From Terriglobales bacterium (GTDB lineage: Bacteria > Acidobacteriota > Terriglobia > Bryobacterales > Bryobacteraceae): a DNA stretch of 64,000 bases. Below are positions 54,320 to 63,276 of the stretch, in pieces (the first letter of the stretch is position 1; each line of letters begins with the position of its first letter). Below the pieces are notes generated by a model. It saw nothing but the letters and a program-made list of their open reading frames with translations. It did no database searches and was not told where the DNA came from. The translations under genes and the position numbers were made by a program. Location of the stretch: assembly GCA_027485675.1 (NCBI GenBank), contig JAIXQP010000050.1, positions 62,001 to 126,000 on the forward strand, written 5' to 3'.

Positions 54320-55306
54320 TTACAATGACTTTTCAATGACAACGACGATTCGGCCCGGCACATCCCCTTCCAGAATCGCCGGCGCGTACAGCGGCACCCG
54401 CTCGAGTGCTATTTCGGTCGTCAGGCTGTCGAGTTTATCCACCGGCATCGTCTCGGCTAACCGCTGCCAAATCCGGCGGCGTTCCGCGTTGGGCACCTCC
54501 ACGGAATTAATACCCAGCAAGTTCACGCCGCGGAGGATGAACGGCAGCACCGTGGTGGAAAGCTCCGTCCCACCGGCTAAACCGCACACCGCCACCGAAG
54601 CGTTCGCCCGCAGTTGCCGGATCAGACCGGCCAGCGTCGTCCCGCCCACCGTATCCACGGCCCCGCCCCAGCGCTCCTTCTCGAGCGGCTTCGCCGATTC
54701 CGCGCTCAGCACCTGCCGGTCAATAATCTCGCTCGCGCCCAGTCCCCGGAGATAGTCGCCCAGCGCGGGCCGCCCGGTGGAGGCCGTCACGCGAAACCCA
54801 CGCGCCGCCAGCAGCGCCACGGCCACGCTCCCCACCCCGCCCGCCGCGCCCGTCACCGCGATCTCCGCGCCGTCCGGCCGCGCCCCGTGGCGCTCCAACG
54901 CATCCACGCACTGCATCGCCGTAAATCCCGCGGTCCCAATCGCCATCGCCTGGCGCAGACTGAACGGAGCCGGCACCGGCACACACCATTCCGCCTGCAC
55001 CCGGGCGTAACCGGCATACCCGCCCCAATGCCTCTCCCCGAGGCCGCAGCCGGTCACTACTACCTCGGTGCCGGCGGGTAGATCCGCCACACTCGATTCG
55101 ACCACGCTCCCGGCCAGGTCGATCCCGGGGACCATCGGGAACTTCCGCACCACGCCCGGCTTGCCTGTGATCGCCAAGCCATCTTTGTAATTCAAGCTGG
55201 AGTAAGCAACTTTGACGAGCACTTCGCCGGGCGGCAACTCGTCCGTACTCAGCCGGACGAGCTTGCCACCCGTTTCAGTCTGCAGCAGGGCGCGGAATTC
55301 AGGCAT
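54320..55306 (-). CDS. YhdH/AcuI-type zinc-independent quinone oxidoreductase
   Basis: 328-residue NADPH-dependent medium-chain reductase, AcuI-like (acrylyl-CoA reductase). Features: SSLNYKDGLAITGKPGVVRK, PMVPGIDLAGSV, GTAGFTAMQCVDALERHG, the nucleotide site VTGAAGGVGSVAVALLAARG, and GVNLLGINSVEVPNAERRRI at the substrate end. It is cytoplasmic, and starts only three bases after the NIPSNAP gene stop, so both are cotranscribed. The exact enoyl-CoA substrate is inferred, not shown. Confidence 0.93.
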   Translation of the reverse strand: MPEFRALLQTETGGKLVRLSTDELPPGEVLVKVAYSSLNYKDGLAITGKPGVVRKFPMVPGIDLAGSVVESSVADLPAGTEVVVTGCGLGERHWGGYAGYARVQAEWCVPVPAPFSLRQAMAIGTAGFTAMQCVDALERHGARPDGAEIAVTGAAGGVGSVAVALLAARGFRVTASTGRPALGDYLRGLGASEIIDRQVLSAESAKPLEKERWGGAVDTVGGTTLAGLIRQLRANASVAVCGLAGGTELSTTVLPFILRGVNLLGINSVEVPNAERRRIWQRLAETMPVDKLDSLTTEIALERVPLYAPAILEGDVPGRIVVVIEKSL

Positions 55307-55309
55307 AGG

Positions 55310-55732
55310 TTATTTAGCAGTGAAGTAGTTCACTTCACCCATCATGACGGATTCCACCTTGTCCGTCAGCTTGCCATTCACTTCGCTCGCCTTGCGGGCC
55401 GCCACCCATTCCGGATCGGCGCCGAACGCCTTCCACGCCTTCTCGCGGGCTTCGCGGCTCGGGTACTTCAAAACATAGATCAAGGTGTTGTCAGAACCCT
55501 TTTCTTTGTCCGTCGGGCCCCAGAAACCAATCACGTTGATCCCGTGCTTGGCGAAAAGCTTCATGGTGTGGTTCCGGAACCGGTTATGGAGATCCTCCAT
55601 CTTGCCCGGCGCGGCAACATAAGTCCGCAATTCGTAGCAAGTGGCTTCTTTCTTCAGGGAGGGAGAGGGAGCGGGCGTCTGGGCCAGGCTCGCTACCGCG
55701 GTGGCCACCAGGGCCAGGAGGAGTGTGCGCAT
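55310..55732 (-). CDS. secreted NIPSNAP-family protein
   Basis: 140 residues: signal peptide ([18 protein letters not shown]) and a NIPSNAP ferredoxin-like domain ([60 protein letters not shown]). Function of bacterial NIPSNAP proteins is unknown. Longer upstream frames lack homology. Its start is 31 bp from the divergent AddB-like gene, with TAAACT seven bases upstream. Confidence 0.9.
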
Positions 55733-55739
55733 GGGCCCC

Positions 55740-55749
55740 AGTTTACAAT
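55740..55749. promoter_or_regulatory. symmetric -10 element, divergent promoter
   Basis: AGTTTACAAT lies between start codons 55732 (-) and 55764 (+). Leftward TAAACT ends seven bases before the ATG (then GGGGCCC); rightward TACAAT ends 14 bases before the ATG, leaving room for GGAGAG. Confidence 0.45.
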
Positions 55750-55763
55750 GGAGAGTCCCTGCG

Positions 55764-58187
55764 ATGAGAGAACGCGTTCTATCCGCCCTGGCGTTAGGCG
55801 CCACCTTGGTCACGGCCAACCGTCGCCTGCGGCGCAAATGGCGGGCGGATTTCGACGCCGCCCAGCAGGCCGCGGGCCATCGCGCCTGGCCCTCTCCGGC
55901 GATTCTGAGCTGGGACGAATGGCTCCTCCAGGCCCATGAGGAGAGCTTTTCCCCGCAGTTGCTGCTGACGGACTTCGCCGAACGATACCTCTGGGAACAG
56001 ATCATCCCCGACCAGGTCCTGCTCGACCGTCCCGCCACCGCCAAGATGGCCTCCCAAGCCTGGGCCCTCCTCTGCGCCTGGCGCGTGCCGCTCGATCATC
56101 CCGGGTTGCGGGAAACGGAAGACGCGCAGGTCTTCGCCAGCTGGGCGCGCACTTTCGCCCGGCAATGCGCCCAGCGGGGCTGGCTCTCCCCGGCCGCTCT
56201 GGCCGATACGGTAGATCCTGTCGCCGCCGAACTCTGGCTGACGGGCTTCGACGAACTCACACCCCAGCAGGATGCCCTGCTCGCCCGCCGGGGGCGTCCC
56301 TATTTCACCGCCGACGCTCCCACTGGCCCGGCCGGCGAAGCCGCCGTCGCCGCCTATCCGGACGCCGCCGCCGAGTTGCGCGCCGCCGCCGCCTGGGCGC
56401 GGCAGGCTATCGAAGAGCAAGGCGCCACCTCCGTCGGCATCGTTGTGCAGGACCTGGCGGCGCGGCAGCCCATGGTGGATGCGATCTTCCGGGAAACGCT
56501 CGGCGGCCCGCTGGCCAACGTCTCCCTCGGCCAGCCGCTCGTCAACTATCCGATCATTGAAGCCGCCATCCGCCTGCTGCGCCTCTCGCTCGGTCCCCTC
56601 ACCCTTCGCGAAGCCGGTCAATTGCTTCTCTCGCCCTTTCTTTTGGGTGGGGAATCCGAGTATCCGGCGCGCGCCCGCCTCGATGCCAAACTGCGCCGCC
56701 AAAAAACCCTCCGCGTCGGTCTCGCCGAGCTGGCCAGTGAGGACTGCCCCCGGTTGGCGGCCGCGCTTGCCAACCTGCGGACCCCTGAAGGCGCGCAACC
56801 GCCCTCGGCCTGGGCCGCGGCCTATCTGCAACTGCTCGGCGGGGCCGGATGGCCCGGGGAGCGGACGCTGTCGAGCGAGGAGCGGCAGACGGAACGCCGC
56901 TGGCAGCGGGTCCTGAGCTCCTTCGCCGCGCTCGATCCCTTGACCGGAGCCCTCGGGGCCGGGGCGGCGCTCCATCTGTTCCGGCGTCTCCTCGAAGAGG
57001 AGGTGTTTCAACCCGAAACCGCCATGCTGCCCGTGCAGATTCTGGAGGCGCTGCAGGCGGCCGGCGCGCAGTTCGATGCGTTATGGGTGCAGGGGGTTGA
57101 TGATCGCGCCTGGCCCTCCCCGGCGCGCCCGAATCCATTCCTGCCCTACCGGCTGCAGCGGGAATGGCGGCTGCCCCACTCCTCGGCCGAGCGCGAAATG
57201 GAGTTCAGCCGGAAGATCCTCGGCCGCCTGCAGCAGACGGCGCCCCGCGTTGTCTTCAGCTACGCCCGGCGCGAAGAAGAGTCCGAGCTGCGTCCCAGCC
57301 GTTTGATCCGTCATCTGCCAGCCTTCTCCGAGTCATTGAAAAACTATCCCACATGGGCGGGCGCCATCCGCGCCGCTGCGGTCCTCGAAACGTTTGAGGA
57401 CGCGGAGGGGCCGGCTCTCCCGGAAGGCATGGCCGTGCGGTCCGGCACCCAGGCCATCAAGTGGCAGGCGCAGTGTCCGTTTCAAGCCTTCGCCCGGACG
57501 CAGTTGCGCGCGGATCCGCTCGAACAGCCGGAAGACGGCATCGACCTGCGGGATCGCGGCACGATGCTGCACCAGGCCTTGGAGCAGTTCTGGCGGGAGT
57601 GCCAGGATCAGGCGACCCTGCGATCTACCGATTGCACGGAAATGCTGGAACGGGCCGTGGATGCGGCGGTGGCCGAACTGAGTGGCGCCATGCGGCAGTT
57701 GGAACGGGACCGGCTCTTGCTGCTGCTGCGCGAGTGGCTGGAGGTGGAAGCGCAGCAGCGGGAGCCTTTCCGCGTAGTCCAGTTGGAGACCCGGTTAACA
57801 CCCCAATTCGCCGGTCTCCGCTTTGAAGCGAGGGCCGACCGCATCGACCGGATGGCGGACGGCAGCACGGTGATCGTCGACTACAAAACCGGGCTCGTCT
57901 CGAAGAAGAGTTGGGAGGGGGAGCGGCCGGAGGAGCCCCAGCTTCCCATTTACGCGGTGACGGCCGACCCCACCCCGGCCGCCGTGGCGTTTGCTCAGGT
58001 GCGGCGTGGGGACTGCCAGTGGGTGGCGGCCCCGGCGCAAGTGGACGAGTGGGGCGCGGTGATTGAGAAACTGGCCCAGGAGCTCCGCGACGGCCGGGCG
58101 GCCGTGGATCCGAAAGATGGGGGCAAACCCTGCGAGTACTGCCATTTGCAGACGCTCTGCCGCATTGCCGAGGTGACGAATGACTGA
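55764..58187 (+). CDS. AddB-like recombination nuclease subunit (TIGR03623-type)
   Basis: 807-residue probable DNA-repair protein, the AddB-like partner of an AddAB helicase-nuclease. ATG 55764 follows GGAGAG. No Walker A motif is seen in the N-terminus ([17 protein letters not shown]), as in this subtype. The C-terminal PD-(D/E)XK nuclease has D706 and K708 ([10 protein letters not shown]), and four cysteines spaced as in the AddB iron-sulfur clamp: C571, C790, C793 and C799 ([10 protein letters not shown]). Its stop at 58185-58187 is inside ATGACTGA, the start of a micro-ORF chain leading to the AddA-like gene. Role: double-strand-break end processing. Confidence 0.88.
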
Positions 58188-58248
58188 CGCGGTTCAGGGC
58201 TCCCGTCCCCAGACGCTCCGCCGCACCACCGAGGTGACCCATGCCTGA
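58180..58248 (+). CDS. micro-ORF A of the junction array, 22 residues
   Basis: Shortest unit: [20 protein letters not shown] then HA. It overlaps the AddB-like stop by eight bases and unit B by eight. The AddA-derived part is reduced to four or five residues; the tail corresponds to the AddB-like C-terminus with Cys changed to Arg. Probably not a functional peptide; expression untested. Confidence 0.35.
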   Translation: MTDAVQGSRPQTLRRTTEVTHA

Positions 58249-58369
58249 TGCCGTCCGGCGGGCGCTCAATCCGCACGGCGCACCGGAGCAACCCGCCGCC
58301 AGGTCCAACGCGGTTCAGGGCTCCCGTCCCCAGACGCTCCGCCGCATCGCCGAGGTGACCCATGCCTGA
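58241..58369 (+). CDS. micro-ORF B of the junction array, 42 residues
   Basis: Starts MPDAVRRALNPHGAPEQPAA and ends RPQTLRRIAEVTHA. Compared with units C and D it lacks 14 codons (the stretch ELITQRFLARSVRA). It overlaps units A and C by eight bases each. Confidence 0.35.
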   Translation: MPDAVRRALNPHGAPEQPAARSNAVQGSRPQTLRRIAEVTHA

Positions 58370-58532
58370 TGCCGTCCTGCGAGTGTCCAATCCGCACGGC
58401 GTACCGGAGCTTATAACCCAGCGATTCCTCGCCCGATCGGTCCGCGCGGAGCAACCCGACGCCAGGTCCAAAGCACCTAAGGATTCGCATCGCCAGACGC
58501 TCTGCCGCATCGCCGAGGTGACCCATGCCTGA
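58362..58532 (+). CDS. micro-ORF C of the junction array, 56 residues
   Basis: Complete unit. MPDAVLRVSNPHG followed by PELITQRFLARSVRAEQPDA aligns with the AddA-like N-terminus, but the segment carrying the P-loop (APAGSGKT) is missing in frame. The end, [20 protein letters not shown], aligns with the AddB-like tail (VDPKD then [11 protein letters not shown]), with the CEYC pair missing. Overlaps units B and D by eight bases. Confidence 0.4.
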   Translation: MPDAVLRVSNPHGVPELITQRFLARSVRAEQPDARSKAPKDSHRQTLCRIAEVTHA

Positions 58533-58695
58533 TGCCGTCCTGCGAGTGTCCAATCCGCACGGCGCACCGGAGCTCATAACCCCGCGATTCCTCGCCCGAT
58601 CGGTCCACGCGGAGCAACCCGACGCCCGGTCCAACGCGGTTCAGGACTCCCGTCCCCAGACGCTCCGCCGCACCACCGAGGTGACCCATGCCTGA
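58525..58695 (+). CDS. micro-ORF D of the junction array, 56 residues
   Basis: Complete unit nearly identical to C (MPDAVLRVSNPHGAPELITP) with a tail like units A and B (DSRPQTLRRTTEVTHA), so the tails have been shuffled among units. Its stop overlaps the AddA-like start by eight bases. Confidence 0.4.
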   Translation: MPDAVLRVSNPHGAPELITPRFLARSVHAEQPDARSNAVQDSRPQTLRRTTEVTHA

Positions 58696-61576
58696 TGCCG
58701 TCCGGCGGCGGGTGCTGGACCCGCACGCCTCGTTTCTCGTCCAAGCTCCAGCCGGGTCCGGCAAGACGGAGCTCCTAACCCAGCGCTTCCTCGCCCTCTT
58801 GGCCCGCGTCGAACAACCGGAAGCCGTCGTCGCCATTACCTTCACCAAAAAAGCCGCCGGCGAAATGCGCGCCCGGCTCGTCCATGCGCTCGAAGTGGCC
58901 CTGGGCCCGGAGCCGGACGAACCACACAAACGAAAAACCTGGGAACTGGCCGCCGCCGTCAACCAGCGCGGCTGGGACCTCATCGATAATCCCTCCCGGC
59001 TCCGCATCCAAACCTTCGACGGCTTCTGCCGCTCCCTCACCGAACAGATGCCCTGGCTCTGCCGGCTGGGCGCGCCCCCGCAGATCGCCGACGATCCCAA
59101 CACCCTCCACTACGCCGCGGCCCTCGCCGCCGTGCGCGCCGTCGAACGCGGAGACCCCGCCGTCGCCCGGCTGCTGGCCCACCTCGATAATCAGTTCGGC
59201 CGCGTGGCGGAGAAGTTGGCCGAAATGCTGGCGAAGCGGGACCAATGGCTCCGCCATCTCCACGCGGATCGCGAAAGCATCGAACGCGCCCTCAGCGTCC
59301 TGGCCCAGCGCCACTTCTCCCTGCTCGCCGCCAAAGCCCCCAGCGGCGTAACCGGCGACTGGGCCGCCGTACAAGCCGCCGCCCTCACCAAGTCGGGAAC
59401 GGTGAGCCGGAAATGGGCCAAAGCCTTCGGCCCCTCCGAGGAGTTCGAAGAACTGATCGCCAAGCCGCTGCCGCCCGAGAGCGTCACCGACGCCCAGTGG
59501 GAAGTGATCGCGACCATCCTCGATGTCCTGAAACTCGCGGCCGCCGAACTGAAGCTGCTCTTCCAGGAACGGCGCCAGACCGACTACGCCGAAGTCCCCC
59601 TCGCCGCCATGCAGGCGCTCGGCCCCCCTGACTCCCCCACCCCGCTCGCCGAAGCGCTCTACTACCGAATCGAACACCTGCTGGTCGACGAGTTCCAAGA
59701 TACCTCCGCCTCCCAGTACGAAATCCTCCGCCGCCTGACCGCCGAGTGGGTGCCGGGCGACGGCCGGACCCTCTTCATGGTCGGCGATCCCATGCAGTCC
59801 ATCTATGGCTTTCGCGAAGCCGACGTGGGCCTCTTCCTCCGCGCCGCCGCCGAAGGCCTGGGCCACCTGCCGGTGGAGTTCGTCCAACTGAACCGGAACT
59901 TCCGCTCCGACCGCGAACTCATCGGCTGGTTCAATGCCGTCTTCCCCTCGGTGCTGGCCCCCGCCGTCGAAGTCGAAACCGGAGCCGTACCCTACGCGCC
60001 CAGCGAGCCGACGCGGGAGTATCCCGATTGCCGCGTCGAGCCGCGGTGGGGCGGCGCGGTTGAAATTGCCGGCATCGTCGAATCGCATCCCGAACAGTCC
60101 ATCGCCATCCTCGTCCGCAACAAGAGCCATGCCGCGCCGGTGATGGCCGAACTGCAGCGGCGCGGCATTCGCTTCCAAGCCGTCGATCTCGATACCCTCG
60201 GCGAACGGAGCGCCGTACGCGATATCGAAGCCCTAACGCGGGCGCTGCTCCATCCCGAGGACCGGACCGCCTTGCTGGCGGTCTGCCGCGCCCCCTGGGC
60301 CGGGGCCACGCTGGCGCAACTGGCCGCCGGGGAGCTGCCGGAGCGCGTCATCACCGCTCTCGACGCCGCGCGCCGCGAACGCCAGCGGGAGCCCCTGCGA
60401 CGGCAGGTGGAGCAGCTCTGGCTGCAGTTGGGTGGTCCGGCCACCCTGACGACGGACCAGGAGCAGGAGGATACCGCGGCGTTCTTCGCCCTGCTCGATA
60501 CCTTCGATCCCTCGACCGATCTAACGGCCGCTCTGGGCGGACTCTTCGCGCGGCCGGATCCACTCGCCGACGGCCGCATTCAAATCCTGTCCATGCACAA
60601 GGCTAAGGGCCTCGAGTTCGATGTCGTCATCCTGCCCGAACTGCACCGTTCGAGCGGCAACGATCAACCGAGCCTGCTGCGCTGGCGCATGGCGGAAGGG
60701 GAACTGCTCCTCGGCTGCATCCGCGAAACGGGGGCCGACCGGGATCCCGTCTACGAATACCTGCGCGAGCACGATAAGACCCGCGCCAGCCACGAGATGG
60801 CCCGCCTGCTCTATGTCGCCTGCACCCGGGCCAAACGGCGCCTCTACCTCTTCGTGCACGGCAAGCTGAAACGCGGAACCCTGGGCCATCTTCTCGAAGC
60901 GACCTTGGCCCCGGTCGTGCAATCCGCCGGCGATACGGAGCCCCGGCCGGCCCGGCAACTCCTCCGGCGGCTGCCGGCGTCCTGGGTCACCCCGGCGCAG
61001 CCGCCTGAGATGGCGTGGCCGAAGGTGGAAGAAGTCGATGCGGTGGAAGAGGCGGTCGAAGAGCCAGGCGAGTGGGAGACGCGGGCCGTCGGCACGCTAA
61101 CGCATCGCCTGCTGCAGCGCATCGCCCGGGAGGGACTCTCCGCCTGGCCGCTGGGGCGTCTGCCTGAGGCCGCGCCCTTCCTGCGGGCGCACCTGCCGGA
61201 AGAGGGGGTAGCCCGGTGCCTGGCGGCCCTGCGGGCGGCCTTGTTGAGCGAGCGGGGCCAATGGATCCTGAGCCAGCACAGCGAAGCCCGCAACGAATGG
61301 GCGGTGACGGGGATGCTGGGCGGCCAACTCGTCAGCGGCGTGCTGGACCGCACGTTCGTCGACAGCGAAGGGACACGCTGGATCATCGACTATAAGACCG
61401 GCACGGCAATGGCCGAATACAAGGAGCAGTTGCAGCGCTACGGCGAGTTGCTCGCGGCGCTTGAAGGCCGGCCCATTCGCCTGGGGCTCTACTACCCGTT
61501 GAACGGCGCCTGGGACGAGTGGGAGTTCACCGCTTCTCGGCCAGCAGAATCAGCGACTGGCCAAGCGGGAGAGTGA
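58688..61576 (+). CDS. AddA-like UvrD-family helicase/exonuclease
   Basis: 962-residue superfamily 1A helicase with a C-terminal nuclease, partner of the AddB-like protein. Helicase motifs: Walker A APAGSGKT at 20-27, Ia AITFTKKAAGEMRARL, II HLLVDEFQDTSASQYEIL, III MVGDPMQSIYGFREADVGLF, IV LNRNFRSDRELI, V ILSMHKAKGLEFDVVILP, VI LLYVACTRAKRRLYLF. The nuclease has LDRTFVDSEGTRWIIDYKTG. The ATG 58688 is inside the last ATGCCTGA of the micro-ORF array. It would unwind and degrade DNA ends to load recombinase. Its end overlaps the convergent methyltransferase by 50 bases. Confidence 0.93.
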   Translation: MPDAVRRRVLDPHASFLVQAPAGSGKTELLTQRFLALLARVEQPEAVVAITFTKKAAGEMRARLVHALEVALGPEPDEPHKRKTWELAAAVNQRGWDLIDNPSRLRIQTFDGFCRSLTEQMPWLCRLGAPPQIADDPNTLHYAAALAAVRAVERGDPAVARLLAHLDNQFGRVAEKLAEMLAKRDQWLRHLHADRESIERALSVLAQRHFSLLAAKAPSGVTGDWAAVQAAALTKSGTVSRKWAKAFGPSEEFEELIAKPLPPESVTDAQWEVIATILDVLKLAAAELKLLFQERRQTDYAEVPLAAMQALGPPDSPTPLAEALYYRIEHLLVDEFQDTSASQYEILRRLTAEWVPGDGRTLFMVGDPMQSIYGFREADVGLFLRAAAEGLGHLPVEFVQLNRNFRSDRELIGWFNAVFPSVLAPAVEVETGAVPYAPSEPTREYPDCRVEPRWGGAVEIAGIVESHPEQSIAILVRNKSHAAPVMAELQRRGIRFQAVDLDTLGERSAVRDIEALTRALLHPEDRTALLAVCRAPWAGATLAQLAAGELPERVITALDAARRERQREPLRRQVEQLWLQLGGPATLTTDQEQEDTAAFFALLDTFDPSTDLTAALGGLFARPDPLADGRIQILSMHKAKGLEFDVVILPELHRSSGNDQPSLLRWRMAEGELLLGCIRETGADRDPVYEYLREHDKTRASHEMARLLYVACTRAKRRLYLFVHGKLKRGTLGHLLEATLAPVVQSAGDTEPRPARQLLRRLPASWVTPAQPPEMAWPKVEEVDAVEEAVEEPGEWETRAVGTLTHRLLQRIAREGLSAWPLGRLPEAAPFLRAHLPEEGVARCLAALRAALLSERGQWILSQHSEARNEWAVTGMLGGQLVSGVLDRTFVDSEGTRWIIDYKTGTAMAEYKEQLQRYGELLAALEGRPIRLGLYYPLNGAWDEWEFTASRPAESATGQAGE

Positions 61577-62276
61577 CGCCGCTGTACAGCAGCTTCGCCT
61601 CCGCCGCGAGCGGGGCGTAGAGCAGGCGGTCGAGCCACGGAGCGACGGGTTGGACCCCGCTCTCCGGCTCCCCGCCGAAAAGTGGCTCCACCACGCGAAA
61701 CTTGAAAAGCGCCACGGGCATCAGCAACGAGTTGGCATAGGAGCAGCGCAGCACCCGAAATCCGTGCCGTTCGGCCAGGGCGAGCAGGCGGCTCTTGCTG
61801 AACCGTTGCCGTTCGTGCGCGAAGGCCGAATGGTGGCTCCGCAGGATATCGAGCGCCGAGACCCGCAGCGCCAGGAACCCGCCGCGCGGCAGTACCCGGG
61901 CGAACTCCGCCATCGGTTCGTCCTCCTTGCCCCGGGGCAGGTGAACGATCACATCCATCGAAACCACAGCATCAAAGGCTTCGGCTCGATAGGGAAGCTG
62001 GCACATGTCGGCTTGGACCATCCGGTCGACGCCGAGCGTCTTGCCATACTCCAATCCCTCCCAGCCGAGGTCCAGCGGAAACATCGGCCAGCCATAGCGC
62101 TCCTGCAAAGCCAGTGCAAAGTGGCCCGTGCCGGCGCCAATCTCGGCCACCCGGCGGAACTTTCGTTCGCGGGCCGTCTGGTCCAGCAGGCCAAACATGA
62201 TCTGCCGCATGCCGCGATACCACCAGAAGGCGTTCTCCGCCTTGGCGATGTTGGCAAACTCGGCAGCGTTCATCAT
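61527..62276 (-). CDS. class I SAM-dependent methyltransferase
   Basis: 249-residue methyltransferase. SAM-binding motif I is RVAEIGAGTGHFALAL, followed by MFPLDLGWEGLEYGK, QADMCQLPYRAEAFDAVVSM (motif II/post I region) and FARVLPRGGFLALRVSA. The N-terminus (ENAFWWYRGMRQIM) resembles methyltransferases acting in polysaccharide or lipid loci. I choose ATG 62276; AAGGG is upstream. Convergent overlap of 50 bases with the AddA-like gene. Substrate unknown. Confidence 0.88.
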   Translation of the reverse strand: MMNAAEFANIAKAENAFWWYRGMRQIMFGLLDQTARERKFRRVAEIGAGTGHFALALQERYGWPMFPLDLGWEGLEYGKTLGVDRMVQADMCQLPYRAEAFDAVVSMDVIVHLPRGKEDEPMAEFARVLPRGGFLALRVSALDILRSHHSAFAHERQRFSKSRLLALAERHGFRVLRCSYANSLLMPVALFKFRVVEPLFGGEPESGVQPVAPWLDRLLYAPLAAEAKLLYSGVTLPLGQSLILLAEKR

Positions 62277-62316
62277 GAGCGGGACCCTTTGGTATCGCAG
62301 ATCGGCAAAGCCAGTG

Positions 62317-63276
62317 TCAAGCCGCCTTGTGCTCGAACTCGGCCTGCGCCTCTTCCATCGCATTCGTCAGCACGATCACCAACATCCGCATAATCGTCTC
62401 CACATCGCCATGCGGAATGATCCGCCGCAGGCGCGCCTCCACCGTGGCGAAGGTCCGCTCCACGCTCCGCTCCACCTCGATGGCCACGAGACGGGGTTGC
62501 CGCTCGGCTTTCGTACGGAACTTCGGCGTGGCCGCCACCAGCTTAACGAGTTGGGTGATGATGTCCTCTTCGGCTTTCAGAATCATCTGAAACCCCCGCT
62601 GCGCTCGCCGCAGCCGGAGCAGAATCCGATTGGCGTTGCGCGCGTCAAAGAATCCCCGGCGGCTAGAATCGAGCTTCTCCGTGACCGGGCGAAGCGAACT
62701 CAGGATCGGCCGGATGTTCCGGTCCACCCAGAAGAAGCAACGGGTCATCATCTCCGGATCGAGGATGTCGTGGCTCAACCGGTCCACATGCTCGCCCACG
62801 ATCGGACGCGAAGCCCGCCACGCCAACATGCCCTGCGCCAGATCAAGATCTTCAAAGCGGTTGGGGCCGTCGAAGTAGAGCGACGGAATCCATTCCCGCA
62901 TCGCGGTCTGCAAGGCCATCGAAACCCGGGGATAGACGGCGGTGTACCGGGCGCTGCGCTCGGAAGGAGCCACGGACCAGCCACCGCGGGGGCGCCATTC
63001 GCGCGGCTCCGGATCGCGTAACAGGCTGCCAGTCCGCGGACGGGCGTTGCAGGCCAGCGGCAGCGGCTGGTTGAACACTGCGTGATTCATCACTTGCAGA
63101 GCGACGTCCGCGGCCGAAGCGGGCGGCGGACCCATCGGGACATCGGCCATCGCACGGCCGCCAAGGATCGCGGGCGGGATGTCTCCCCATTGGGTGACAC
63201 CAAAGGAGGACGACGCCCCCGGCTGAGCATTGGGCAGGAAGAGCGGCTGCGAAGCGGTTAAGGAAATGAGATTCAT
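62317..63276 (-). CDS. hypothetical protein, 319 residues
   Basis: No family recognised and no signal peptide. The first 100 residues are Pro/Gly-rich and low complexity (DIPPAILGGRAMADVPMGPP); the rest is helical with many Arg (RNANRILLRLRRAQRGFQMI; TFATVEARLRRIIPHGDVET). The start is ATG 63276, after TACATT-type hexamer nine bases upstream; GTG 63279 is possible. Neighbours downstream are also unrecognised small helical proteins on the same strand, which suggests a lineage-specific group. Confidence 0.7.
   Translation of the reverse strand: MNLISLTASQPLFLPNAQPGASSSFGVTQWGDIPPAILGGRAMADVPMGPPPASAADVALQVMNHAVFNQPLPLACNARPRTGSLLRDPEPREWRPRGGWSVAPSERSARYTAVYPRVSMALQTAMREWIPSLYFDGPNRFEDLDLAQGMLAWRASRPIVGEHVDRLSHDILDPEMMTRCFFWVDRNIRPILSSLRPVTEKLDSSRRGFFDARNANRILLRLRRAQRGFQMILKAEEDIITQLVKLVAATPKFRTKAERQPRLVAIEVERSVERTFATVEARLRRIIPHGDVETIMRMLVIVLTNAMEEAQAEFEHKAA

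Follow-up and report, generated by a model that had tools for sequence, protein, structure and literature searches.

Between the addB-like and addA-like genes of the window (the whole stretch of 64,000 bases that was analysed), we found an array of four short ORFs that probably arose by tandem duplication of a segment spanning the boundary of these two overlapping genes, its copies carrying the signals for translational coupling along passively. The original prediction had described four such ORFs of 22, 42, 56 and 56 codons, which was confirmed, and had proposed a tandem amplification of the gene-overlap junction, which is supported by the absence of the array from the relatives in which both genes could be placed (0/12) and by similar cases in the same genome.

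AddA and AddB are subunits of one enzyme. The two flanking genes correspond to an AddAB operon, as AddB-type and AddA-type nuclease/helicase genes adjoin (TIGR03623, UvrD-helicase, PDDEXK_1). The addB-like product matches TIGR03623 with 742.7 bits (cut-off 299.6) from residue 53 onward, and its true start, judged by eye, may be the ATG near 55764. For the addA-like product, the top NCBIfam match is TIGR02784 with 200.1 bits, under its cut-off of 860.75. The features of the locus are as follows:

55641..58187, plus strand: addB-like gene, probable DNA repair protein (TIGR03623, PDDEXK_1)
58170..58176, plus strand: GAGGTGA, Shine-Dalgarno-like, inside the addB tail ahead of micro-ORF 1
58180..58248, plus strand: micro-ORF 1, 22 codons, ATGACTGA overlap with the addB stop
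58231..58237, plus strand: GAGGTGA ahead of micro-ORF 2
58241..58369, plus strand: micro-ORF 2, 42 codons, 42 bases shorter than units 3 and 4
58352..58358, plus strand: GAGGTGA ahead of micro-ORF 3
58362..58532, plus strand: micro-ORF 3, 56 codons, AddA-like head and AddB-like tail
58515..58521, plus strand: GAGGTGA ahead of micro-ORF 4
58525..58695, plus strand: micro-ORF 4, 56 codons, ATGCCTGA overlap with addA
58678..58684, plus strand: GAGGTGA ahead of addA
58688..61576, plus strand: addA-like helicase-nuclease gene (UvrD-helicase, UvrD_C, PDDEXK_1)

The ATG codons of the junctions are located at 58180, 58241, 58362, 58525 and 58688, the last one being addA's own, and are spaced by 61, 121, 163 and 163 bases. 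As predicted, stop and start codons overlap at every junction, both flanking genes included (5/5, 8 bases each); the overlap reads ATGACTGA at 58180 and ATGCCTGA at the other four junctions. GAGGTGA begins ten bases 5' of each ATG at all five junctions, forming a 7-bp duplex with the anti-Shine-Dalgarno sequence. The predicted unit-length differences were also found, 42 bases (163-121) and 102 bases (163-61), each divisible by three, and the four spacings are all 1 modulo 3, so that a head in the AddA frame can read into a tail in the AddB frame.

The copies contain addB tail and addA head sequence, and outside the array both genes are intact. The claim that each unit is AddA-like at its start and AddB-like at its end holds in general but fails for unit 1, which is AddA-like in its first codons only. 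From ACGCGGTTCAGG onward, the DNA of unit 1 corresponds to the spacer in units 2 and 4, which makes its 'MTDAV' mostly a recombination joint. Compared to the addA head, the units lack one codon, for Arg (seen in units 2-4), and 33 bases of the P-loop part, and two units are short of a further 42 and 102 bases. Neither the P-loop (GSGKT) nor CEYC is present in any of the four micro-ORF translations, in agreement with the predicted loss, and the third cysteine of the AddB tail is kept in unit 3 only. Units 3 and 4 show 17 differences over 163 bases. No sigma-70-type promoter or terminator was found within 58000-58900, no Rfam match at gathering score within 55000-62500, no tRNA in the 64-kb window, and no Pfam match above cut-off for units 2-4. 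A dispersed repeat element was also considered and ruled out, the array occurring at one place in its own genome (E 0.001).

We then looked at the constraint on the hybrid peptides. The dN/dS values are 0.109/0.124 for units 3 and 4, 0.098/0.064 for units 2 and 4, and 0.178/0.138 for units 2 and 3, giving ratios of 0.88-1.53, about 1, from 17, 10 and 18 differences, respectively, in pairs that are not independent. The 17 differences between units 3 and 4 fall 5, 7 and 5 times on the three codon positions. Neither dN/dS nor codon positions showed silent changes to be in excess among the units, and the ratio of about 1 indicates that the peptides look free of constraint. Between units and parents, dN/dS is 0.28-0.51 for the AddA segments and 0.21-0.55 for the AddB tail; since these values mix the unit and parent branches, we ascribe them to the constrained parent branch, although the units themselves may be under some constraint. 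Open frames were rejected as proof of selection, as they are likely under neutrality: a 168-base body is still open with probability 0.42 after 50 neutral substitutions (0.30-0.49 after 40-80). We take the hybrid peptides to be drifting freely, as these sequence comparisons suggest.

Comparing the junction across relatives, as the original prediction had suggested, showed no array in the 12 other genomes of the genus with both genes placed, and no repeats near their addB/addA junction either; 6 of the 18 relatives could not be judged (3 without an AddB match, 3 without an AddA match), and the three genomes without an AddB match have no repeats in the bases examined. A gain in this lineage is therefore the simplest account of the array, which, by its presence in relatives (0/12 placed genomes), does not qualify as a conserved leader or upstream ORF. 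In 8 close relatives, the addB stop and the addA start overlap as NTGCCTGA, with ATG (2), GTG (2) or CTG (4) at the addA start position. CTG occurs in L027, L028, L029 and L030 (G011, G006, G012 and G009), three of these four showing the extended GGAGGTGA, and is possibly a non-standard start there. In 4 distant relatives, the addB stop keeps this position with respect to the aligned AddA M1, where a CCT or CCG codon stands, which puts their addA start elsewhere. At one locus, L057, the last AddB match ends ~2.5 kb ahead of addA, unlike at the other loci having both genes. The dS between units and AddA is 0.42-0.56 (10-15 silent sites) versus 0.73 for addA codons 1-200 compared to L025, the nearest relative by dS, which roughly fits a gain of the array after that split.

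Direct repeats were surveyed over 2.80 Mb of the 6.59-Mb genome, in 141 stretches that include the window. Self-BLAST gave 31 local direct-repeat clusters in these 2.80 Mb (11.1 per Mb), against 0 in one Markov-1 shuffle of the same bases, so the array is not due to chance. E. coli K-12 has 2 clusters in 300 kb (6.7 per Mb), and other loci gave 1 cluster in 109 kb (14 loci with Acidobacteria-type titles) and 1 in 518 kb (66 others), these 14 and 66 being the best 80 of a longer list. The idea of an exceptionally repeat-rich genome was left unsupported, 11.1 per Mb not being clearly above E. coli K-12. Once the 12 of the 31 clusters that lie near stretch ends were dropped, 15 of the remaining 19 lay at gene boundaries, compared with 8.5 expected for the same spans (4/2000 simulations as high) or 4.7 using unit lengths (0/2000 as high). 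Among spacers of 30-1200 bases, taken from 373 convergent, 1400 co-directional and 370 divergent adjacent pairs, copies of gene edges were found in 14/111 convergent, 8/435 co-directional and 0/234 divergent spacers. Several convergent spacers hold copies of both 3' edges, as boundary-spanning duplication must give. Genes were called in this survey with a crude ORF/GC-position caller, which misfiled locus L155 as a convergent pair and called a false gene within the L157 array. L155 is also missing from the self-BLAST clusters; a tandem-repeat finder detected it.

Two other operon junctions of this genome carry copies of the gene 2 head and the gene 1 tail, as at addB/addA. At L155 6799-7086 (G000:C9:46799-47086), the genes overlap by ATGGTGA and the 114-base units combine the gene 2 head and the gene 1 tail; there are two 29-codon frames, the last one ending in an overlap with gene 2, and head and tail are not joined in frame. 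By eye, this gene pair looks permease-like. At L217 4479-4851 (G000:C3:124479-124851), the genes overlap by ATGA, and a single 60-codon hybrid has ATGA overlaps at both ends. In the sister species (G017), the junctions orthologous to L155 and L217 are both single. In another genome, G011, the 3' end of addA is itself tandemly repeated (117 bases, 3 copies; L038 6585-7105) before a convergent neighbour that looks methyltransferase-like by eye. On the minus strand of L250 (9906-10741; G000:C6:49906-50741), the gene 1 tail is copied over 101 bases (92%) and the gene 2 head, without mismatch, over 53 bases, both within the 836-base spacer of a co-directional pair. Arrays between convergent genes contain copies of the flanking 3' regions, some with both edges:

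L157, 10644-11453: convergent-gene array
L215, 12335-13116: convergent-gene array
L145, 9792-10022: convergent-gene array
L233, 7818-8368: convergent-gene array
L187, 4394-5222: convergent-gene array
L118, 8564-9092: convergent-gene array

Since repeats seem to break the assembly, arrays may be undercounted; those at or near contig ends are:

L130, 1-802: tandem array
L217, 17688-18176: tandem array
L245, 11553-12076: tandem array
L196, 12028-12510: tandem array
L126, 1-281: tandem array
L233, 12922-13407: tandem array

The conserved coupling proposed in the original prediction is suggested, rather than proven, by an invariant run at the junction and by in-frame indels. Units 2-4 are invariant over 28 bases at the junction, a result matched by 315 of 20000 shuffles, and gene conversion could be the source of this run. 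In the three operon arrays, 6/6 indels are divisible by three versus 15/56 in ten convergent arrays (Fisher p 0.0009), a contrast that is uneven, since the control is machine-only and the operon list partly hand-read. The operon indels are 3, 33, 42 and 102 (window), 45 (L217) and 39 (L155), of which only the 42 and the 3 in the window came from the machine, with no indel detected by it in L217 or L155; the values 33, 102, 45 and 39 were taken manually from the offsets between repeats. The CEYC loss was left out of this count because its alignment is ambiguous, and so at first was L216, because its genes do not overlap; adding L216 (indels 1 and 21) to the hand list gives 7/8 multiples of three (p 0.0017). 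The machine-only count over all four co-directional arrays is 3/4 (p 0.077), which is not significant. Restricting the contrast to indels of at least 9 bases gives p 0.08, and removing two poorly aligned control arrays gives p 0.012. In 2 of the 3 operon cases the first joint is in the correct frame, no better than chance. Active selection keeping the chain closed is plausible, with about an even chance of being right.

Tandem duplication across the overlapping addB/addA boundary would have left a hybrid segment between intact genes, with the addA head joined in frame to the addB tail. This hybrid would have shed one codon for Arg and the parts with the P-loop and CEYC before being amplified to four copies, two of which would later have shrunk by 42 and 102 bases; we infer this order of duplications and losses from the units. 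A boundary duplication of any length would be tolerated, because gene 1 stays whole in the first copy and gene 2 in the last. Each copy would bring a ribosome-binding motif, a start and an overlapping stop, so that ribosomes leaving addB could reinitiate at every micro-ORF in turn and arrive at addA. According to a review (PMC12548453), untranslated RNA is where Rho loads. A closed chain would keep the RNA translated and spare it from Rho loading. The micro-ORF chain is presumably translated, which would keep addA coupled and avoid a 500-base untranslated gap open to Rho. As a tentative extension, its chance being well under even, we suggest that boundary-spanning duplication recurs in this lineage and that, at overlapping operon junctions, selection keeps a closed ribosome relay, with frames, ribosome-binding motif and stop/start overlaps maintained while the peptides drift.

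The same origin could also have left neutral debris only, with no selection on the chain, the frames being open by chance and recency and addA staying coupled simply since the last junction is intact. We give this a substantial chance, if short of an even one: it agrees with the inter-unit dN/dS of about 1, the computed probability of an open 168-base body (0.30-0.49 after 40-80 neutral substitutions), the similar arrays between convergent genes, where coupling is impossible, and the machine-only indel contrast, but is at odds with the partly hand-read operon indels (6/6 vs 15/56 convergent) and with the inner copies, which keep the ribosome-binding motif and the start/stop overlap unchanged. 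A regulatory role, in which the micro-ORFs would set the AddA:AddB ratio or their copy number would act as a slippage-prone expression switch, seems unlikely to us. Every unit does have its own ribosome-binding motif and overlap, and the copies do vary in length, as seen from the spacings of 61, 121 and 163, but an array missing in 12 placed relatives is not a conserved regulator, and the lack of promoter- or terminator-like sites in 58000-58900 and of Rfam gathering-score matches in 55000-62500 also argues against this role.

Draft metagenome assemblies commonly miss 16S rRNA, and here the lack of a 16S match in the genome together with its 54 contigs suggests a draft, perhaps metagenomic, assembly, in which at least 6 arrays of the genome are at contig ends. 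An assembly artefact is nevertheless very improbable, given that units 3 and 4 differ at 17/163 bases, that the other units differ by 42 and 102 bases, and that the array is interior to a 259,620-base contig. It is also hard to credit that the units encode selected peptides, AddAB inhibitors for example: their AddA- and AddB-like ends and open frames are kept and their dN/dS against the parents is below 1, but silent changes are not in excess among units, the P-loop and CEYC are lost, and units 2-4 have no Pfam match above cut-off.

The genome offers natural constructs with 1 (L217), 2 (L155) or 4 (addB/addA) micro-ORFs between overlapping genes, the L155 and L217 junctions being single in G017. 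Such ladders could gauge the efficiency of serial termination-reinitiation and the protection from Rho. They also suggest a rule by which short tandem duplications persist where they span gene boundaries, yielding hybrid micro-ORFs that may give rise to small genes, either spurious or new.

Duplicated gene-overlap junctions were not described in the literature searched, which consisted of titles and abstract openings from a collection with few subscription papers. In gene content and order, the locus is the same as an AddAB helicase-nuclease operon, except for the inserted array, which is missing in the relatives examined. Regulatory leader peptides and upstream ORFs are short frames ahead of a gene; short frames are shared here, but they derive from the neighbouring genes and are absent in the relatives examined. 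Bacterial tandem duplication and amplification places copies of a segment head to tail, and these then diverge and acquire indels. The copies are likewise head-to-tail and diverging here, the difference being that the 61-163-base unit spans a gene boundary, so that they are hybrids of the gene 2 head and the gene 1 tail. Finally, in the review (PMC12548453), -8 overlaps are described as an enriched spacing among gene pairs, and coupled overlapping pairs with -8 spacing (NTGNNTGA) have the same 8-base overlap, their ribosome-binding motif likewise lying within the upstream gene; at addB/addA, by comparison with such pairs, the overlap recurs at five junctions and the two genes are separated by four hybrid micro-ORFs.
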